Origin: Aeromicrobium flavum
Lineage (GTDB): Bacteria; Actinomycetota; Actinomycetes; Propionibacteriales; Nocardioidaceae
Direction of reading: 5' to 3'
DNA length: 64,000 bases
NCBI RefSeq assembly: GCF_007992115.1
Contig: NZ_BJZQ01000015.1
Span: 1-64,000 of the forward strand
Shown: in pieces, positions 1,163-51,427 of the stretch
How positions within the stretch are numbered: position 1 is the stretch's first letter
Layout of the letters: each line of letters begins with the position of its first letter
Program-made: the position numbers and the translations under genes
The notes under the pieces: generated by a model
What the model was told of the DNA's origin: nothing
Databases searched by the model: none
Seen by the model: only the letters and a program-made list of their open reading frames with translations

Positions 1163-2568
1163 AGGAACTCCTCGTCGTGGACGTCCGCCACGACCTGCTC
1201 GTAGGCCCAGGTCCCGCCGGGCCAGTTCGACGTGATGCGACCCGTCTCCGGGTGGCGGTACCAGCTGGTGCACGAGGCCCACGCCGAGTGCGCGAGCTCG
1301 TGCTGCACCCGGTCGTCCCAGCGCTGCTCGGCCGCCGGCGTGGCCTCGACGCGGCGTAGGCGGCGGTGACGCATCCGGTCGAGGGTGGCGCGGATGTGCC
1401 GGGCCTGCGCCTCGAGCATCGTGATGATCGAGCCGCCACCGAGATTGGTGTTGGGCCCGTAGGCCAGGAACAGGTTGGGGAAGCCGGGCACGTGGATGCC
1501 CAGGTGCGCCCGAGCCCCGGCGCTCCAGGTGTCGTGGAGGTCGCCGCCGGGCCCGACGATCTCGATGCCGTGCAGGAAGTCCTGGGTGTCGAAGCCGGTG
1601 GCGAAGCAGATCGCGTCGACCGCGTGCCAGACGCCGTCGGTGGTGCGGATCGCGTCGGAGCGCACCTCGGTCAGCGCGTGCGGCACGAGGTGGACGTCGT
1701 CGCGGGTCAGGGTGGGGTAGTAGTCGTTCGAGAACAGGATGCGCTTGCAGCCCACCTGGTGCCGAGGTCGGAGGTGTCGGCGGAGGTCGGCGTCGCGGAC
1801 GCGCACCCGCAGGTGGGTCGCGGCCAGCCTCTCGATCGTGGTCGCGACGGCGGAGTCGGGATCCAGCCCGCGGGAGAACTGTTGCGTGATCCAGTCGATG
1901 GGACGCCGCTCGCCCGGCGCGAAGTCCCGGTACCAGTGCGCGTAGCCCCCATCGGGCTTCGGCAGGATGTGGTTCGCGGAGCGCTGCAGCACCACGAGCT
2001 CGGCGGCGACGTCGGCCAGTCGCGGCACGATCTGCACGGCCGAGGCGCCGGTGCCCACGACGGCGACGCGTCGGCCGGCGAGGTCGGCCGAGTCGTCCCA
2101 CGCACCCGCGTGCAGCACGGTGCCGTCGAAGGTCTCCCAGCCGTCGACGTCGGGCGCGCTCGGCTCGGACAGCTGGCCCACCGCGCTGATGAGGACGTCG
2201 ACCGTCTCGACCGTGCCGTCGTCGAAGGTCACCCGCCAGGTCTCGTCGACCCAGCGGGCGGACACGACGCGGGCCCCGAAGCGGGTGCGACGCGTGACGC
2301 CGTACTGGTCGGCGACCCGGCGCAGGTACCCGAGGATCTCGGCCTGGCCGGGGTAGCGGCGCGACCAGTCGTCGTTCGGCGCGAACGAGAACGAGTACAG
2401 GGGAGCGGGGACGTCGCACGCGGCCCCGGGGTAGGTGTTGTCGCGCCAGACGCCGCCGACGGTGTCGGCCCGCTCCCAGAGCCGGACGTCGTCGTAGCCG
2501 TGCGTCAGCAGTTCGGCCGCGGTGCCGATGCCGCCGAAGCCGGTGCCGATGATCCCGATCGACGTCAT
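1153..2568 (-). CDS. flavin-containing monooxygenase, type I Baeyer-Villiger family
   Basis: This 471-residue NADPH- and FAD-dependent monooxygenase is predicted to insert oxygen into ketones. It has an N-terminal FAD Rossmann motif (GIIGTGFGGIGTAAEL, residues 5-20), the Baeyer-Villiger fingerprint FxGxxxHxxxW at residues 147-157 (FDGTVLHAGAW) and a second Rossmann motif VAVVGTGASAVQI at 168-180 for NADPH. Length is slightly short for the family, which usually runs from about 490 to 540. The ATG overlaps the TetR stop as ATGA, and the gene's own end overlaps the ADC-like gene, so the three form one operon transcribed leftward. Substrate is unknown; the neighbouring GMC sterol-type oxidase makes a steroid or terpenoid ketone plausible. 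Confidence 0.85.
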   Translation of the reverse strand: MTSIGIIGTGFGGIGTAAELLTHGYDDVRLWERADTVGGVWRDNTYPGAACDVPAPLYSFSFAPNDDWSRRYPGQAEILGYLRRVADQYGVTRRTRFGARVVSARWVDETWRVTFDDGTVETVDVLISAVGQLSEPSAPDVDGWETFDGTVLHAGAWDDSADLAGRRVAVVGTGASAVQIVPRLADVAAELVVLQRSANHILPKPDGGYAHWYRDFAPGERRPIDWITQQFSRGLDPDSAVATTIERLAATHLRVRVRDADLRRHLRPRHQVGCKRILFSNDYYPTLTRDDVHLVPHALTEVRSDAIRTTDGVWHAVDAICFATGFDTQDFLHGIEIVGPGGDLHDTWSAGARAHLGIHVPGFPNLFLAYGPNTNLGGGSIITMLEAQARHIRATLDRMRHRRLRRVEATPAAEQRWDDRVQHELAHSAWASCTSWYRHPETGRITSNWPGGTWAYEQVVADVHDEEFLWT

Positions 2569-17973: not shown

Positions 17974-20760
17974 ATGACCGACTCCGAGTTCGACGCAATC
18001 GCCCGGTCCAAGGACGAGGCCCTGCGCCTCGACGTGCGCCGCGTCGGCGACCTGCTGGGCCAGACCCTGCGCCGCCTGGAGGGTGAGCACCTCTACGAAC
18101 AGGTCGAGCTGGTTCGCGCCCAGGGCAAGGTCATCGAGGAGTCCGACGATCCCGACGAGCGACACGAGGCCGCGGCGCGCATCCGGGCGCTGCTGGCCGA
18201 GCTCGACGCCGCCACGGTCGGCAAGCTGGTCCGCGCGTTCAGCGTCTACTTCAACCTCGCCAACGTGGCCGAGCAGGTGGCGCGCGTGCGCGGCATCGAG
18301 TCGCGGCCCGACGGCGAGGGCTGGCTGGCCCGCGCGATCGAGGACATCGTGGCCGAGCAGGGCACCGAGGGCCTGCGCCGGGGGATCGAGCGGATCGACG
18401 TGCGGGCGATCTTCACCGCCCACCCCACCGAGGTCAGCCGCCGCACGATCCTCACCAAGCTGCGCCGGATCGCCGACCTCCTGATCGACTCCGCCCCGCC
18501 CGGCACCCGTCGGCGCACGGCGCAGGACCGCGACCTCGCCCAGCTCATCGACCTGATCTGGCAGACCGACGCGGTGCGCCGCACGCGGCCCACGCCGCTC
18601 GACGAGGCCCGGCACCTGGTCTTCTTCCTGCAGCAGATCCTCGAGGAGGCGCTGCCCGACATCGGCACCGACCTGGCCGACCAGCTGGCCGAGCACGGCA
18701 TCGCCCTCGACCCCGCGGTGCGGCCGCTGTCGTTCGGCACGTGGATCGGCGGCGACCGCGACGGCAACCCCAACGTCACTCCCGAGGTCACGCTCAGCAT
18801 CCTGCAGCTCCAGAACCGGATCGCCACGCGGATCGTCGATGCCAACCTCGACCTGCTGATCCGCGAGCTGTCGTCCTCCAGCGAGCTGGTCGAGGTCAGC
18901 GCCGAGCTGACGACGTCGCTGCAGGCCGACCTCACCGCCCTGCCCGACCTCGACCCGCGGCTGCTCACCGTCAACGCCCTCGAGCCGTACCGGCTCAAGC
19001 TGTCGTGCGCGAAGCTCAAGGTCGCGAACTCGGCGGCCCGCGTCGCGGCCGGCACGCCCCACGTGCCCGGACGCGACTACGCCAACCGGGCCGAGCTCCT
19101 CGCCGACCTGGCCGTCGTCGACCGGTCGCTGCGCGAGCACGGTGGCGAGCTCATCGCCGACCGGATGCTGGCCCGGGCGATCCGCGGCATCTCGTCGGTG
19201 GGCCTGCACCTGGCCACGATGGACATCCGCGAGCACGCCGAGGCCCACCATCACGCGCTCGCGATCCTCTACGACCGGCTGGACGAGTCCGACGCGGCCT
19301 ACGCCGACCTGAGTCGCGAGGACCGCTTCGCCCTGCTGTCGACGGAGCTGTCGCGGCTGAGGCCCCTGTCCGCCGACCCGCCGTCGCTCGACGAGTGGGG
19401 CGAGCGCACCTACGGGGTCTTCACGGCCGTGCGCGAGCTGAAGGAGACGTTCGGCGAGGACGTCATCGAGTCGTACATCGTGTCGATGACCCTCGGCGGC
19501 GACGACCTGCTGGCGCCGGTCGTGCTGGCCCGGCAGGCCGGGCTGGTCGACCTCGTCGGCAGCGAGGGCACGCCGCCGTTCGCCCGACTGGACTTCGTGC
19601 CGCTGCTCGAGACGGTCGACGAGATCCGCCGCGCCGGAGACGTCCTCGACGAGCTGTTGTCCGACGACCACTACCGGACGCTCGTGCGGCTGCGCGGCGA
19701 CCGGCAGGAGGTCATGCTCGGCTACTCCGACTCCAACAAGGCCGGGGGCATCACCACGTCGCAGTGGGAGCTGCATCGCGCCCAGCGGGCGCTGCGCGAC
19801 GTCGCCCAGAAGCACGGGGTCACGCTGCGGCTCTTCCACGGTCGAGGCGGCACCGTCGGCCGCGGCGGCGGCCCCACGTACGACGCGATCCTGGCCCAGC
19901 CCTACGGCGTGCTGACCGGCGACATCAAGTTCACCGAGCAGGGCGAGGTCATCAGCGACAAGTACTCCCTGCCGCGCCTCGGTCACGAGAACCTCGAGCT
20001 CTCGCTGGCGGCGGTCCTCGAGGCCTCGACGCTGCACCTGGAGGCGCGCACGCCTGCCGACGCGATGCAGCAGTGGGACGACACGATGACGCAGGTCAGC
20101 GACGCGGCGTACGCGGCGTACCGCCGGCTGGTCGACGACCCGGGCCTGTTCGAGTACTTCCTGGCCTCGACCCCCGTCGACCAGCTCGGCGACCTCAACA
20201 TCGGCTCGCGGCCGTCGCGTCGTCCCGAGACCGGGGGCGGGATCGACGGGCTGCGGGCGATCCCGTGGGTGTTCGGCTGGACCCAGAGCCGTCAGATCGT
20301 GCCGGGCTGGTTCGGTGTCGGCAGCGGCCTGCGGGCCGCGCGCCTCGCCGGTCAGGAGAAGGTGCTGGCCGAGATGCTCGACCAGTGGCACTTCTTCCGC
20401 ACGTTCATCTCCAACGTCGAGATGACGCTGGCCAAGACCGACCTCGACGTCGCGGGCCACTACGTCGACACGCTCGTGCCGCCCGGGCTGCGCCCGATCT
20501 TCGACATCATCCGGGCCGAGCACTCCGTCACCGTCGAGGAGGTCCTGCGGATCACCGGTGAGCGGCACGTGCTCGACGACCAGCCGGCCCTGCGCCGCAC
20601 GCTCGAGGTGCGCGACGCCTACCTGCAGCCGATCTCGTTCGCCCAGGTCGACCTGCTGGCTCGTTACCGCGAGGACCCCGACGCGGTCGACGAGGACATG
20701 CGGGCCGCGCTGCTGCAGACGGTCAACGGCATCGCCAACGGGCTGCGGAACACCGGATGA
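17974..20760 (+). CDS. ppc: phosphoenolpyruvate carboxylase
   Basis: This 928-residue enzyme carboxylates PEP to oxaloacetate, replenishing the TCA cycle. Family motifs are present in order: [13 protein letters not shown] with the catalytic histidine, [34 protein letters not shown] with the lysine, [15 protein letters not shown] with the essential arginines, and the C-terminal ANGLRNTG. Length matches the usual 880-970. The gene has a normal leader: TAGGCT at 17920-17925 and a GAGGGGGG ribosome site before the ATG. Flanking genes are unrelated, so it is probably monocistronic. Confidence 0.98.
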
Positions 20761-45804: not shown

Positions 45805-47172
45805 TCAGCCGCGAGCGATCGAGACCATGTCCTCGCGCGGGACGACCTTCTTGCGCTCGCGCGGGTGGGCGTCGTTGGCGCCGAGGGACTCCTCGTGGGC
45901 GTCGAGCTTCTCCCAGCCCTCCCACGTCGTGTACTCCACGCCACGGCTGTCGAGGTGACGGTCGAACGCCTCACGCTCGGCGAACTCCGGCGCGGGCAGG
46001 CTCGGAAGGTCCTCGACGAGCATCTTGATCGTCTGGGCCGCGTCGGACTTCGTGTGGCCGATCAGGCCGACCGGACCGCGCTTGATCCAGCCAGTGGCGT
46101 AGACCCCCGGCAGCGGGGTGCCGTCGATGTCGAGCACGTGCCCGCCGTCGTTGGGCAGCACGCCCGCGGTGGCGTCGAAGGGCAGCCCCGGCAGGTTGTC
46201 GGAGTAGTAGCCGATGGCGCGGTAGACGGCCTGGATCGGCCAGTCCTTGAACTGGCCGGTGCCGCGGACGTTGCCGGTCCCGTCGAGCTCGGTGATCTCG
46301 GTGCGCAGGCCGACGACCTTGCCGTCCTCACCGAGGATCTCGACCGGGCTCTGGCAGAAGTGGATGTGGATGCGGTGCGGCGCGCCCGAGGGCTCCTTCG
46401 CCAGGTAGTCGCCCAGGACCTTGACGACGAGCTTCTGGCTCTTGGCGGCGGCGAGCGCCTCCATCGAGCCGTGGTCGAACTCGTAGCCCTCGGGGTGCAC
46501 GACGACGTCGATCGTGGGGGAGTGGCTCAGCTCGCGCAGCTCCATCGGCGTGAACTTGACCTGCGCCGGACCGCGGCGGGCGAACACGTGCACGTCGGTG
46601 GTGGCGTTGTTCTTGAGGCCCTCGTACACGTTGTCGGGGATCTCGGTGACGAGCAGCTCGTCGGCCGTCTTGGCCAGGATGCGGGCGACGTCGAGGCCCA
46701 CGTTGCCGACGCCGAGGACGGCGATCTCCTTGGCGTGCGGCTGGAAGTCCCACTCGCGCGGGGCGTCGGGGTGACCGTCGTACCAGTAGACGAAGTCGGC
46801 GGCGCCGTACGAGCCGTCGAGGTCGACGCCCGGGATCTCGAGCTCACGGTCGCGGCGGGCTCCGGTGGCGAACACGACGGCGTCGTAGAACCCCTTGAGG
46901 TCCTCGAGCTTGATGTCGGTGCCGAAGTTGACGTTGCCGAAGAAGCGGATGTCCTCGTTGGCCATCACGCGCTTGAGCGCCTTGATGATCTCCTTGATCC
47001 GCGGGTGGTCGGGGGCCACGCCGTAGCGGATCAGGCCGAACGGGGTCGGGTCGCGATCGAGGATGTCGACGGTGACGTCGAGGTCCTCGGTCTTGGTGAG
47101 GATGTCGGCGGCGTACACGCCCGCGGGGCCGGCGCCGACGACGGCGACGCGCACCTTCCTGTCCACAGTCAT
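45805..47172 (-). CDS. fprA: ferredoxin-NADP(+) reductase, FprA (adrenodoxin reductase) type
   Basis: This 455-residue flavoenzyme passes electrons between NADPH and ferredoxin, for example to serve cytochrome P450 or biosynthetic enzymes. The FAD motif is VAVVGAGPAGVYAADIL, followed by PFGLIRYGVAPDHPRIK, which is diagnostic of the adrenodoxin-reductase group. The NADP motif is IAVLGVGNVGLDVARIL, and the C-terminal ATGWIKRGPVGLIGHTKSDA segment is well conserved. Length equals mycobacterial FprA. TAGGCT (complement of 47179-47184) precedes the ATG by 6 nt and overlaps the end of the neighbouring DUF952 gene, so it has its own leaderless promoter. Confidence 0.97.
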   Translation of the reverse strand: MTVDRKVRVAVVGAGPAGVYAADILTKTEDLDVTVDILDRDPTPFGLIRYGVAPDHPRIKEIIKALKRVMANEDIRFFGNVNFGTDIKLEDLKGFYDAVVFATGARRDRELEIPGVDLDGSYGAADFVYWYDGHPDAPREWDFQPHAKEIAVLGVGNVGLDVARILAKTADELLVTEIPDNVYEGLKNNATTDVHVFARRGPAQVKFTPMELRELSHSPTIDVVVHPEGYEFDHGSMEALAAAKSQKLVVKVLGDYLAKEPSGAPHRIHIHFCQSPVEILGEDGKVVGLRTEITELDGTGNVRGTGQFKDWPIQAVYRAIGYYSDNLPGLPFDATAGVLPNDGGHVLDIDGTPLPGVYATGWIKRGPVGLIGHTKSDAAQTIKMLVEDLPSLPAPEFAEREAFDRHLDSRGVEYTTWEGWEKLDAHEESLGANDAHPRERKKVVPREDMVSIARG

Positions 47173-47591: not shown

Positions 47592-48053
47592 ATGAGCCTC
47601 GACGTCCAGATCACCTTCGACGCCCACGACCCACCGGCCCTGGCCGACTTCTGGGCCGCCGTGCTCGGCTATCACGTCCCTCCGCCACCGGGTGTCACGC
47701 TGCCTCCCGAGGCCGACCCGTGGCAGGCCTGGGACGAGTTCCTCGAGGCGATCCAGGTCCCCGAGGAGCTGCGGCGCGCCAAGGCCGCGATCGAGGACCC
47801 GCAGGGGAGCGGCCCGCGGCTGTTCTTCCAGCGGGTGCCCGAGGACAAGGTGGCCAAGAACCGGGTCCACCTCGACGTCCGTGTCGCGCCGGCGCTGGAC
47901 GGCGAGGCACGGATGACCGCGCTGGAGTCGGCGTGCGAGCGGCTGGTCCCGCTCGGCGCGACCCGGGTGCGACGGGTCGAGCCCGATCCGCCGCTCGAGA
48001 GCGGGTTCATCGTGATGCAGGACCCCGAGGGCAACGAGTTCTGCCTCGACTGA
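47592..48053 (+). CDS. VOC (glyoxalase/bleomycin-resistance) family protein
   Basis: This 153-residue protein has the VOC fold: LDVQITFDAHDPPALADFWAAVLGY at the N-terminus and ESGFIVMQDPEGNEFCLD at the C-terminus, with KNRVHLDVRV in the middle. The last glutamate in NEFCLD is a usual metal-ligand position. Most such proteins are small lyases or resistance proteins and are uncharacterised. The ATG has AAGGAG 5 nt upstream. It is divergent from the DUF952 gene. Confidence 0.85.
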   Translation: MSLDVQITFDAHDPPALADFWAAVLGYHVPPPPGVTLPPEADPWQAWDEFLEAIQVPEELRRAKAAIEDPQGSGPRLFFQRVPEDKVAKNRVHLDVRVAPALDGEARMTALESACERLVPLGATRVRRVEPDPPLESGFIVMQDPEGNEFCLD

Positions 48054-48103: not shown

Positions 48104-48192
48104 TCACGGAGTCGATATCGGCGCGCGGGTCGCCTAGGTTGGAGGCACGACGGTTGAACGAGAAACCATCCCGCCGCCCGATCAGGAGCCCG

Positions 48193-48675
48193 ATGAACCC
48201 GACGAAGCGTCGCAGCTACGCCGCCCTGGCCGCCTCGACCGCCCTGCTCACACTCGCCGCCTGCGGCAGTGACGCCGCGGAGGACGACGCGGACGCGACG
48301 AGCAAGACCCCCGCCGCGACCTCCCCCGCCGCGTCCGAGCCGGCCGCCTCGGCGCCCGCCGGTGCCGCCGGCGAGTTCACGCCCGGTGACTACGAGGCCA
48401 CCGGCACGTACACCTCGCCCGACGGCCAGACGCAGTCGATCGAGGTCGAGGTCGAGCTGGCCGCCGACGGCACGATCACCGACCTCGATGCCGACGGCCA
48501 GGCCGAGAGCGGCAACTCCGAGCAGTACCAGGGCAAGTTCGAGAGCGGCATCGACGCGAAGGTCGAGGGTCGCAAGATCACCGAGCTCGACATCGACAAG
48601 GTGTCCGGCTCGTCGCTGACCAGTGGTGGCTTCAACGACGCCATCGAGCAGATCATCGGCCAGGCCCGGGCCTGA
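48193..48675 (+). CDS. lipoprotein with an FMN-binding (flavinylation-target) domain
   Basis: This 160-residue protein has a lipobox (LTLAAC, cysteine 24) and a long Ala/Pro/Ser tether (25-60), so it is anchored outside the membrane. The mature domain (about 61-160) resembles FMN_bind domains: GDYEATGTY at the start and DKVSGSSLTSGGF near the C-terminus. The SGSSLTS (138-144) lines up with the [S/T]GA[T/S]-x-[T/S]S motif whose Ser/Thr receives FMN through a phosphoester bond from ApbE; serine 141 is the likely acceptor. The ApbE gene follows after 7 nt. The ATG has CAGGAG 5 nt upstream, and a -10 (TAGGTT) lies near 48135. Confidence 0.85.
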   Translation: MNPTKRRSYAALAASTALLTLAACGSDAAEDDADATSKTPAATSPAASEPAASAPAGAAGEFTPGDYEATGTYTSPDGQTQSIEVEVELAADGTITDLDADGQAESGNSEQYQGKFESGIDAKVEGRKITELDIDKVSGSSLTSGGFNDAIEQIIGQARA

Positions 48676-48682
48676 GCCGCCC

Positions 48683-49516
48683 ATGACCTCCGAGTGGCGT
48701 TTCGACGCACTCGGAACTCCGTGGTCGATCGGGACCCCCGACCCGATCGGCCCCGGACCGCGAGCCGCGATCACGTCCCGGATCGAGCAGTTCGACCGGA
48801 CGTGGTCGCGGTTCCGCGACGACGCCACCGTCCACGCGCTGCGCCACGACGCCGCCGTCGACCTGGGCCCGGACGCACCGTCGATCCTGGCCGTCTACGA
48901 CCGCCTCTTCGCCCTGACCGGGGGAGCGGTGAGCCCCCTGGTCGGGGGTGCGCTGGAGCAGCTGGGCTACGGCGGCGGCTACTCGCTGTCCCCCTCCGGC
49001 GAGCCCGTGCGGATCCCGTCGTGGGCCGACTGCGAGCTCGACGGCACGGTCCTGCGGGTGCCCGGCCCCGTCGTGCTCGACATCGGCGCGGTCGGCAAGG
49101 GTTGGCTCGCCGGCCAGGTGGCGGCGATGGTCGACCAGCCGTGCGTCGTCGACGCCAGCGGCGACCTCGTCAACCGCTCCGGCCACGTCCTGCGGGTGGC
49201 GCTGGAGGACCCGCAGGACCCCGAGCTGGCCGTCGGCGTCGTGGAGGTGCCCGACGGCGAGGCCCTGTGCGGCTCGGCCAGCAACCGGCGGCGCTGGTCG
49301 GCTGACCTCCACCACGTCCTCGACGCCCGGTCCGGCCGCCCCACGCGCGAGGTCGTCGCGGCGTGGGCCGGCGGGCCCGACGCGGGGTGGGCCGACGGCC
49401 TGGCGACGGCGGCCTTCTTCACGGCCGAGCTGCCGGTCGCGGGACACTGGTGGGCGGCGCTCGGCCGCGACCGGCGGATCGTCGCGCACGGAGTTCCCGG
49501 AGAGGTGTTCGCATGA
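48683..49516 (+). CDS. apbE: FAD:protein FMN transferase (ApbE family)
   Basis: This 277-residue flavin transferase attaches FMN covalently to target proteins. ApbE segments are visible: FDALGTPWSI at the start, VVLDIGAVGKGWLAGQV (usually DLGGIAKG), VDASGDL (usually NAGGD) and HHVLDARSGRPT (usually HIiDPrTG). There is no clear signal peptide, and the protein is shorter than Gram-negative ApbE (about 340). Whether it acts in the cytoplasm or is exported is unclear. It lies between its probable substrate, the FMN-binding lipoprotein, and a membrane reductase whose start overlaps it as ATGA. Confidence 0.9.
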   Translation: MTSEWRFDALGTPWSIGTPDPIGPGPRAAITSRIEQFDRTWSRFRDDATVHALRHDAAVDLGPDAPSILAVYDRLFALTGGAVSPLVGGALEQLGYGGGYSLSPSGEPVRIPSWADCELDGTVLRVPGPVVLDIGAVGKGWLAGQVAAMVDQPCVVDASGDLVNRSGHVLRVALEDPQDPELAVGVVEVPDGEALCGSASNRRRWSADLHHVLDARSGRPTREVVAAWAGGPDAGWADGLATAAFFTAELPVAGHWWAALGRDRRIVAHGVPGEVFA

Positions 49517-50994
49517 GTTTGCTCGACCGCCTGCTCGGCCGGTTCACGATGTACCGGCTCGTCACCGTCGTGCTGCTGGCGCTGGCCGCGGTGGCGGTCG
49601 TGCAGTCCGCCCTGGGGGTGCTCGACTCGTCGGTGTTCGGCGTGCGCGCGCTGCTGACGACCCTCGTGGTCCTGGTCGCGACGTCCCTGCTGGTGAACCT
49701 GGCGGTGGGCCGACTGGTGGGCGCGCGGCCGCACCTGGAGTCGTCGGCGGTGACGGCGCTGATCCTGTGGTTCCTGTACTGGCCCTCGGCCGATGCCGAG
49801 CAGCTGGCGTGGCTCGCCCTCGTGGCCGCGCTGGCGCAGGTCTCGAAGTACGCCATCGCCTGGCGGGGGCGCCACCTCGTGAACCCCGCCGCCGCGGGCG
49901 TGGTGCTGGCGGTGCTGGTCGGCTGGATCACGGACTGGCCCGTGCCCTTCACCGGCTGGTGGGTGGCCAGCGAGTCGTTGTTCTGGTTCGTCCTCGTGGG
50001 CGCCGTGCTCGTGCTGCACCGCACTCGCCGGCTCGCGGTGGGCGCCCTCTTCGCGGTCGTCGCGGTCGCCGTCACGGTGGGCTGGCAGGTCGGCACCGGC
50101 GTCGGGCTCGCCGACGCGGCGCGGTTCACGGCGTACTCCACGCCCATCGTCTTCTTCGGCGGCTTCATGCTGAGCGAGCCGCTGACGCTGCCGCCGCGGC
50201 GGGCGCAGCAGCTGGGCGTCGCGGTGCTCGCGGGGCTGCTCTTCACGTGGCCGCTGCTGACCTCGCGCCTGTTCGGGGAGCCGTGGACGTCCGAGCCGTT
50301 CACGAGCACCTACGAGCTGACGCTCGTCGTGACCGGACTCGTCGCGTTCGCGCTGCGCCAGGGGTCCCGCACCCTCGTCCTGCGCGAGCAGCGCAGCCGG
50401 GGCGGCGACGTCGTGGAGTACGTCTTCGACGCCGACCGGCCGCTGCGGTTCGCGCCCGGGCAGTACGTCGAGGTCGACGTGCCGCACCGCGGCACGGACA
50501 CCCGAGGACAGCGGCGGATGTTCAGCGCCGTGTCCGCGCCCGGGTCGGAGGTCGTGCTGGCCACCCGCCACCCCGAGCCCGGGTCCTCGTACAAGCGGGC
50601 GCTGGCCGCCCTCACGCCCGGCGACCGGGTGCGCGTGACGTCGGTGCACGGCGACTTCGTCTGGCCGGCCTCCGGCCCGGTGATCCTGGTCGGCGCCGGG
50701 ATCGGCGTGACTCCGTTCCTGAGCCAGCTGGCCGCCCACCGCGACCGCGACGTCGTGGTCGTCGTCGGCGAGCGCGACGACCAACCCTACGTGGCCGAGC
50801 TCGAGTCCTCGGGGGCGCGCGTGGTCCGGCTGCCCGTCGAGCAGGTGCGGGGCGACGTCCTCGCCGAGCTCGTGCCCGACCTCGACCGCCGCACGGCCCT
50901 CGTCTCGGGACGGCCCGTCTTCGTCGACACCGTCGCACGCAGCCTGCGCGGCCGGGTCCGCCGCACCAGGCGCGACCACTTCCTCGGCTACTGA
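49513..50994 (+). CDS. membrane flavin reductase: NqrB/RnfD-like membrane domain fused to a ferredoxin-reductase domain
   Basis: This 493-residue protein has an N-terminal membrane half (about 1-275, eight or nine hydrophobic segments). It includes FFGGFMLSEPLTLPP, which resembles the FMxTDPxTxP segment of NqrB/RnfD. The C-terminal half (about 280-493) is a ferredoxin-NADP reductase module: FAPGQYVEVDVP, RRMFSAVSAPG (FAD) and VILVGAGIGVTPFLSQL (NAD(P)H). It would move electrons from cytoplasmic NAD(P)H across the membrane to the FMN lipoprotein. The fusion of both modules in one chain and the ATGA overlap with apbE support a dedicated pathway. The final acceptor is unknown. Confidence 0.88.
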   Translation: MSLLDRLLGRFTMYRLVTVVLLALAAVAVVQSALGVLDSSVFGVRALLTTLVVLVATSLLVNLAVGRLVGARPHLESSAVTALILWFLYWPSADAEQLAWLALVAALAQVSKYAIAWRGRHLVNPAAAGVVLAVLVGWITDWPVPFTGWWVASESLFWFVLVGAVLVLHRTRRLAVGALFAVVAVAVTVGWQVGTGVGLADAARFTAYSTPIVFFGGFMLSEPLTLPPRRAQQLGVAVLAGLLFTWPLLTSRLFGEPWTSEPFTSTYELTLVVTGLVAFALRQGSRTLVLREQRSRGGDVVEYVFDADRPLRFAPGQYVEVDVPHRGTDTRGQRRMFSAVSAPGSEVVLATRHPEPGSSYKRALAALTPGDRVRVTSVHGDFVWPASGPVILVGAGIGVTPFLSQLAAHRDRDVVVVVGERDDQPYVAELESSGARVVRLPVEQVRGDVLAELVPDLDRRTALVSGRPVFVDTVARSLRGRVRRTRRDHFLGY

Positions 50995-51034: not shown

Positions 51035-51427
51035 ATGAGGATCACCGCGACCGTCCGACAGGAGTCCACCCGCCGCGACGTCGCGGTCGAGACCGACGGG
51101 CGCCGGACCGACCTCGCGCTGCCGGCCGTCAACGGCGGCGAGCTGCTGGCGTCGGCCCTGGCCACGTGCTTCGTCAACGACCTGTTCCGCGAGGCGCCGG
51201 CCCACGACGTGACGGTGGACGCGGTCCGCGTGACGGTCGAGGCGCAGTTCGGTGGCCGGGGCGAGCCGGCGCGTGCGCTGTCGTACTCCGTCCACGTGGA
51301 GTCCGGAGATGATCCGGTTCGCGTCGCCGCTCTGGTCCGCGCGACCGACGCGGTCGCCGAGGTCCACAACACGCTGCGGCCAGCCCTGCCCGTCACGCTG
51401 ACCGACGTGCGGATCGGCTCCGCCTGA
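51035..51427 (+). CDS. OsmC-family protein
   Basis: This 130-residue protein matches OsmC/Ohr-like folds: TATVRQESTRRDVAV, then PAVNGGELLASALATCFVNDLF with the first conserved cysteine (C45). The second peroxidatic cysteine, normally in a VxxC segment further on, is absent; the corresponding region reads ARALSYSVHVE. It may therefore not be a classical peroxidase. The ATG at 51035 begins the first strand. It lies 40 nt after the flavin-reductase gene in the same direction and could share its transcript, but a functional link is only inference. Confidence 0.85.
   Translation: MRITATVRQESTRRDVAVETDGRRTDLALPAVNGGELLASALATCFVNDLFREAPAHDVTVDAVRVTVEAQFGGRGEPARALSYSVHVESGDDPVRVAALVRATDAVAEVHNTLRPALPVTLTDVRIGSA

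Follow-up and report, generated by a model that had tools for sequence, protein, structure and literature searches.

A probable NQR/RNF-like flavin electron exporter with a leaderless FMN transferase in Aeromicrobium flavum

Three neighbouring genes of Aeromicrobium flavum probably encode a flavin electron exporter of the NQR/RNF-like type, which we regard as the best overall explanation of the locus. The trio is an ordinary, well-conserved member of a published flavinylation system, and its unremarked oddity concerns the place at which the flavin is attached. The genes, for an FMN_bind lipoprotein, the FMN transferase ApbE and a membrane reductase, lie side by side on the plus strand at positions 48193-50994 of the window (the whole 64,000-nucleotide stretch analysed), as the first-pass annotation had placed them. 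The overlap it claimed for the last two genes amounts to four bases, the ATGA shared by apbE and the reductase gene.

48193..48675, plus strand: FMN_bind lipoprotein, 160 aa (PF04205; lipobox Cys24; motif DKVSGSS; only FMN_bind protein in the genome; alignment with 8p2a)
48683..49516, plus strand: ApbE, FAD:protein FMN transferase, 277 aa, leaderless (PF02424; solved homologues; only ApbE in the genome)
49513..50994, plus strand: single-chain membrane reductase, 493 aa (AlphaFold model; VIA-align to RnfD, NqrB, NqrF and FNR; match to the RnfD profile)

The identities assigned beforehand to the three products were borne out, through PF04205 for the lipoprotein, PF02424 for ApbE, and fold and relatives for the reductase. 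The lipoprotein matches PF04205 at 30.2 bits (cut-off 22) and has the lipobox LAAC (Cys24). Its flavinylation motif reads D135-K-V-S138-G-S-S141-L-T-S, in which Ser141 (codon 48613-48615) is the candidate acceptor. This serine of SGSSLTS, already singled out in the first-pass annotation as standing where threonine is common, aligns without a shift to the threonine that bears FMN in the solved FMN_bind domain 8p2a, although the profile match is weak (E 0.034). Position 6 of the motif is Ser instead of the Ala of the tested consensus D-x-x-[ST]-G-A-[ST], and many of the related lipoproteins have Ala at position 4. An SGSS or AGSS acceptor motif was found in 77/97 proteins, from Actinomycetes and some Saccharibacteria; most other Patescibacteria and Chloroflexota carry SGAT or TGAT (10 proteins) or a motif of GAS form, and there a membrane anchor replaces the lipobox and ApbE is of a different, short kind. 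Because other FMN_bind proteins of Actinomycetes use SGAT, the acceptor serine is a trait of the present branch, and the predicted SGSS/AGSS serine acceptor is the rule among its actinobacterial members. Serine can be used by ApbE, with a yield below that of threonine (PMC12052999).

The reductase matched no Pfam family at all, PF03116 and PF00175 included, and was assigned from its predicted structure. The AlphaFold model (mean pLDDT 85.8) consists of two parts. Aligned with VIA-align, the N-terminal part (residues 1-283) matched RnfD (8ahx_D; Z 22.5, 242 residues superposed at 3.2 A) and NqrB (8acw_B; Z 20.9). For the C-terminal part (residues 284-493), the matches were FNR-type FAD/NAD(P)H reductases and NqrF (Z about 21-23). 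With Foldseek alone, the hits to the C-terminal half were mostly of the FNR/SpNOX kind; the resemblance of the N-terminal half to RnfD/NqrB emerged from VIA-align. The profile built from 53 relatives (A4) matched the RnfD profile with 96.8% probability (E 2.6e-10), superseding a narrower, genus-only profile that had reached 7.8%. In the alignment with the reductase family, the covalent-FMN loop of RnfD, DAVTxATPL, is a gap, and the ApbE target motif [STA]G[AS][ST] was absent from the window reductase. The protein contains RRMFS, GAGIGVTP and a terminal FLGY, which we take to be typical of the FAD/NAD(P)H reductase fold, and it has no cysteine and hence no Fe-S cluster. The reductase is thus modelled as an NqrB/RnfD-like domain (1-283) fused to an FAD/NAD(P)H reductase (284-493), lacking the flavinylation loop of RnfD. 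Among the 53 family members, PF00175 was detected in 47 and PF03116 in 31, whereas the window protein shows neither. Surveys in which an NQR/RNF-like system is defined by both Pfam matches (PMC8238504) may therefore under-count members such as this reductase.

The first-pass annotation had called the unit self-contained, and the genome agrees with that view. The genome of A. flavum (3.09 Mb, 99.99% complete) contains one gene each for an FMN_bind protein and an ApbE, and in it we detected no match to PF03116 and none to the RnfA/E-NqrD/E family (PF02508), for which positive controls were detected. Judged from these gene contents, the trio is a stand-alone unit rather than a piece of NQR or RNF. 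No further gene was common to all related loci, nor was any extra operon member conserved with the trio across the genus. The neighbours in the window are a gene named ferredoxin-NADP reductase-like from its sequence alone (45805-47172, minus strand), a glyoxalase-like gene (47592-48053, plus strand) and an OsmC-like gene (51035-51427, plus strand), none of which is kept with the trio throughout the genus.

A full-length reductase was present in 34/37 Aeromicrobium genomes, the remaining three being 82-87% complete, and in 0/21 genomes sampled from other families of the order. In 93/101 related loci, one genome entering the count twice (L036, L044), the complete trio was found, with gene order and strand almost always preserved. 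The 101 loci come from Aeromicrobium, Nocardioides, Arthrobacter, Microbacterium, Agreia and others, from Saccharibacteria and other Patescibacteria, and from Ktedonobacteria (Chloroflexota). About 90 loci, with identities as low as roughly 30%, keep the gene arrangement, which is therefore non-random. Two loci depart from it in their own ways: in genome G005 (L041, 2446-5000) an insertion with unrelated genes parts the lipoprotein gene from apbE, and a Schumannella contig (L070, 1536-4111) carries a tandem pair of FMN_bind lipoprotein genes ahead of apbE.

The arrangement turned out to have been described already. Meheust et al. (2021, PMC8238504) found 127 NQR/RNF-like clusters, most of them from Actinobacteria and candidate phyla, and the membrane domain of this system is known to lack the flavinylation site (Huang et al. 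2024, PMC10979944; PMC11334425). The trio likewise clusters an exported FMN_bind protein with ApbE, and it shares with the published system the fused NqrB/RnfD-like and NAD-binding reductase, the missing flavinylation site of the membrane domain and the distribution mainly over Actinobacteria and candidate phyla. It differs in that its reductase lies under Pfam detection for both defining families, its acceptor is the serine of a GSS motif and its ApbE is leaderless. With RNF and Na+-NQR the trio has in common the membrane fold (RnfD, NqrB), the reductase fold (NqrF), an FMN_bind subunit (RnfG, NqrC) and the dependence on ApbE, whereas the genome lacks RnfA/E or NqrD/E and the reductase lacks cysteine, Fe-S cluster and covalent FMN loop.

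ApbE itself matched PF02424 with 87.2 bits (E 1.7e-24), retains the catalytic motifs GAVGKG, CGSASN, HHVLDARSGRP and ADGLATA, and aligns its His motif with those of solved FAD:protein FMN transferases. Its N-terminus (MTSEWRFDALGT) has no signal peptide, lipobox or hydrophobic leader, even in the longest in-frame upstream extension, a feature that the first-pass annotation had overlooked. A hydrophobic N-terminal stretch was found in only one of the ApbEs from 95 related loci (L099), and there only when a far upstream start was used; the other 94 are leaderless. Lipoproteins from the related operons, by comparison, have a hydrophobic N-terminus in 90/97 cases. Among ApbEs sampled more widely, a hydrophobic leader was found in 0/30 from the class Actinomycetes versus 26/30 from other classes of the phylum (Fisher p about 8e-13, which overstates independence because the genomes are related); leaders were scored by a hydropathy threshold rather than by a trained predictor such as SignalP. 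In Actinomycetes, nearly all FMN_bind proteins have an N-terminal membrane segment, whereas the adjoining full-length ApbEs have none. The class-wide pattern in Actinomycetes covers loci L183-L212 and L225-L254. A homologue of the flavin exporter EetB (PF07456), the only flavin exporter family searched, was found in 0/39 genomes, that of A. flavum included, and positive controls were detected.

Because ApbE is leaderless, its target is exported and EetB is absent, flavinylation of the lipoprotein probably precedes its export. The unit had been characterised as extracytosolic: this holds for the flavin, which ends outside, but not for the transferase, which looks cytosolic, so that the attachment itself probably takes place inside. 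As for the wider proposal, that in Actinomycetes and, more broadly, in NQR/RNF-like systems a cytosolic ApbE flavinylates exported flavoproteins before or during export, with FMN crossing the membrane already attached and no FAD exporter being needed, we see the chances as evenly balanced. A non-exhaustive literature search found no publication proposing cytosolic flavinylation before export, and we found no discussion of a leaderless ApbE in PMC8238504, PMC10979944 or PMC11334425. Since ApbE accepts a seven-residue tag as its substrate (PMC12052999), a folded target domain is dispensable. The classical exit for a preloaded protein is the twin-arginine route (PMC9973259). The lipoprotein contains an RR motif, in the sequence KRRSYAAL. 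As a general rule, Tat export of a preloaded lipoprotein was rejected, as the RR-x-hydrophobic motif occurs in just 7/97 relatives; for Sec export of an FMN-carrying chain, we found no precedent in the literature.

The same electron exporter could instead be flavinylated outside the cell, by an ApbE that leaves non-classically or together with a partner and draws on FAD from another exporter. Every characterised ApbE that acts on an exported target is itself exported (PMC12052999; PMC9973259). In Listeria, ApbE for exported targets works outside on FAD supplied via EetB (PMC9973259), a multi-flavin protein of Streptomyces has likewise been discussed as flavinylated outside with exported FAD (PMC10339131), and, as cited in PMC12052999, a truncated cytosolic ApbE did not complement in Salmonella. 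The flavin-based extracellular electron transfer of Listeria (FmnB, PplA, EetB) offers an analogy to the present unit in that a flavinylated lipoprotein would serve as the outward carrier of a Gram-positive cell. Nevertheless, the Listeria system has a different membrane reductase and an exported FmnB that needs FAD export by EetB-FmnA, whereas in A. flavum ApbE is leaderless and EetB absent. Given that the leader is missing from practically all related loci and from every one of the 30 sampled Actinomycetes, and that the sole exporter family searched is absent from all 39 genomes, we consider an ApbE working outside unlikely. An ApbE without a signal peptide is also known from Klebsiella pneumoniae, where the target is a soluble cytosolic enzyme, fumarate reductase (PMC12052999), unlike the exported lipoprotein encoded here. 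This precedent, together with the serine at motif position 6 and the alanine at position 4 of many relatives, might be taken to mean that the motif is degenerate, the lipoprotein bears no flavin and ApbE serves another cytosolic protein outside the FMN_bind family. We regard such a reading as extremely improbable, as the lipoprotein is the only FMN_bind protein of the genome, the GSS acceptor is conserved across the actinobacterial branch, almost always beside ApbE, and no motif of this kind is present in the reductase.

The direction of electron flow is a separate matter. RNF is reversible (PMC12052999) and the fold alone gives no direction, so that the unit might oxidise an external donor and reduce NAD(P)+ or another cytosolic carrier. 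Inward flow nonetheless appears very unlikely to us, with the ion-pumping partner subunits absent from the genome and outward flow proposed by those who described the system (PMC8238504). In the outward-directed exporter that we favour, the reductase would draw electrons from NAD(P)H and pass them via its FAD to a non-covalent flavin of the membrane domain; the next carrier would be the FMN that the lipoprotein outside bears on Ser141. The path from NAD(P)H to an outside FMN, which the first-pass annotation had sketched, agrees with the published NQR/RNF-like model (PMC8238504; PMC10979944). Electrons would flow one way, outward, to an acceptor for which ferric iron, a quinone or an oxidant are candidates. 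With moderate confidence, we propose that ApbE loads FMN from cytosolic FAD onto the lipoprotein either ahead of its export or in the course of it, so that no FAD exporter would be needed; the likeliest export route is Sec.

Upstream of the lipoprotein gene lie putative promoter elements, one of which, a palindrome, recurs at a second locus of the same genome.

48135..48140, plus strand: possible -10 element, TAGGTT (TANNNT type), putative and found by eye
48152..48167, plus strand: imperfect palindrome of 16 bases, GGTTGAACGAGAAACC, putative operator (conserved in the genus)
L259:988-1473 (minus strand) and 1519-2115 (plus strand): divergent genes for a MarR regulator and a YceI-family protein, with the shared palindrome between them

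A similar TA[CG]NGT stands 5' of the palindrome in several relatives. Across the genus, the palindrome holds 13.1 bits of information versus at most 7.8 in shuffles, and its core is found in 17/21 genus loci versus 1.5 expected; outside the genus, it did not rise above chance (12/72 versus 7.6 expected). Only five sites in the whole genome lie within one mismatch of GGTTGAACNNNNAACC, and one of them is located between the divergent marR and yceI genes (contig C19, near 19207-19222). In the marR-yceI promoter, 12-15 of the 16 positions match GGTTGAACGTTCAACC in 19 genus loci, the shuffled maximum being 11; the count covers the 19 correctly oriented loci, five wrong-strand loci and one without translation having been left out. 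The palindrome is presumably related to the sites of RosR in C. glutamicum. The marR-yceI arrangement resembles rosR-cg1322 of the same species, in which RosR is an H2O2-sensitive MarR regulator beside the gene for a secreted, presumably polyprenyl-binding protein (PMC5401885; PMC7764795). By this analogy, the palindrome shared with the marR-yceI promoter suggests a RosR-like regulator, and we propose, with lower confidence than the steps above, that such a MarR protein may control the operon through the palindrome at 48152-48167. An iron (DtxR/IdeR) box was also sought upstream and gave no signal above shuffles. With the likeness to RosR and no iron box found, the lead on regulation favours redox or envelope stress over iron. 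An apbE mutant of B. breve is impaired under iron limitation (PMC5449479).

Extracellular covalent flavins presumably play a part in about half of bacteria (PMC8238504). Where the target is exported, both ApbE and FAD have been assumed to act outside the membrane (PMC9973259). Cytosolic flavinylation, if true, would invert the accepted order, in which export comes first and flavinylation follows outside. A flavoprotein finished inside the cell would change the view of how the cofactor is supplied, would fit the missing FAD exporter, and would make it necessary to ask how the export machinery copes with an FMN-bearing chain. The putative MarR operator offers a first approach to the signal that turns the system on and hence to its electron acceptor. 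The three-gene unit of A. flavum, whose 3 Mb genome encodes just one FMN_bind substrate and just one ApbE, makes a clean test case.
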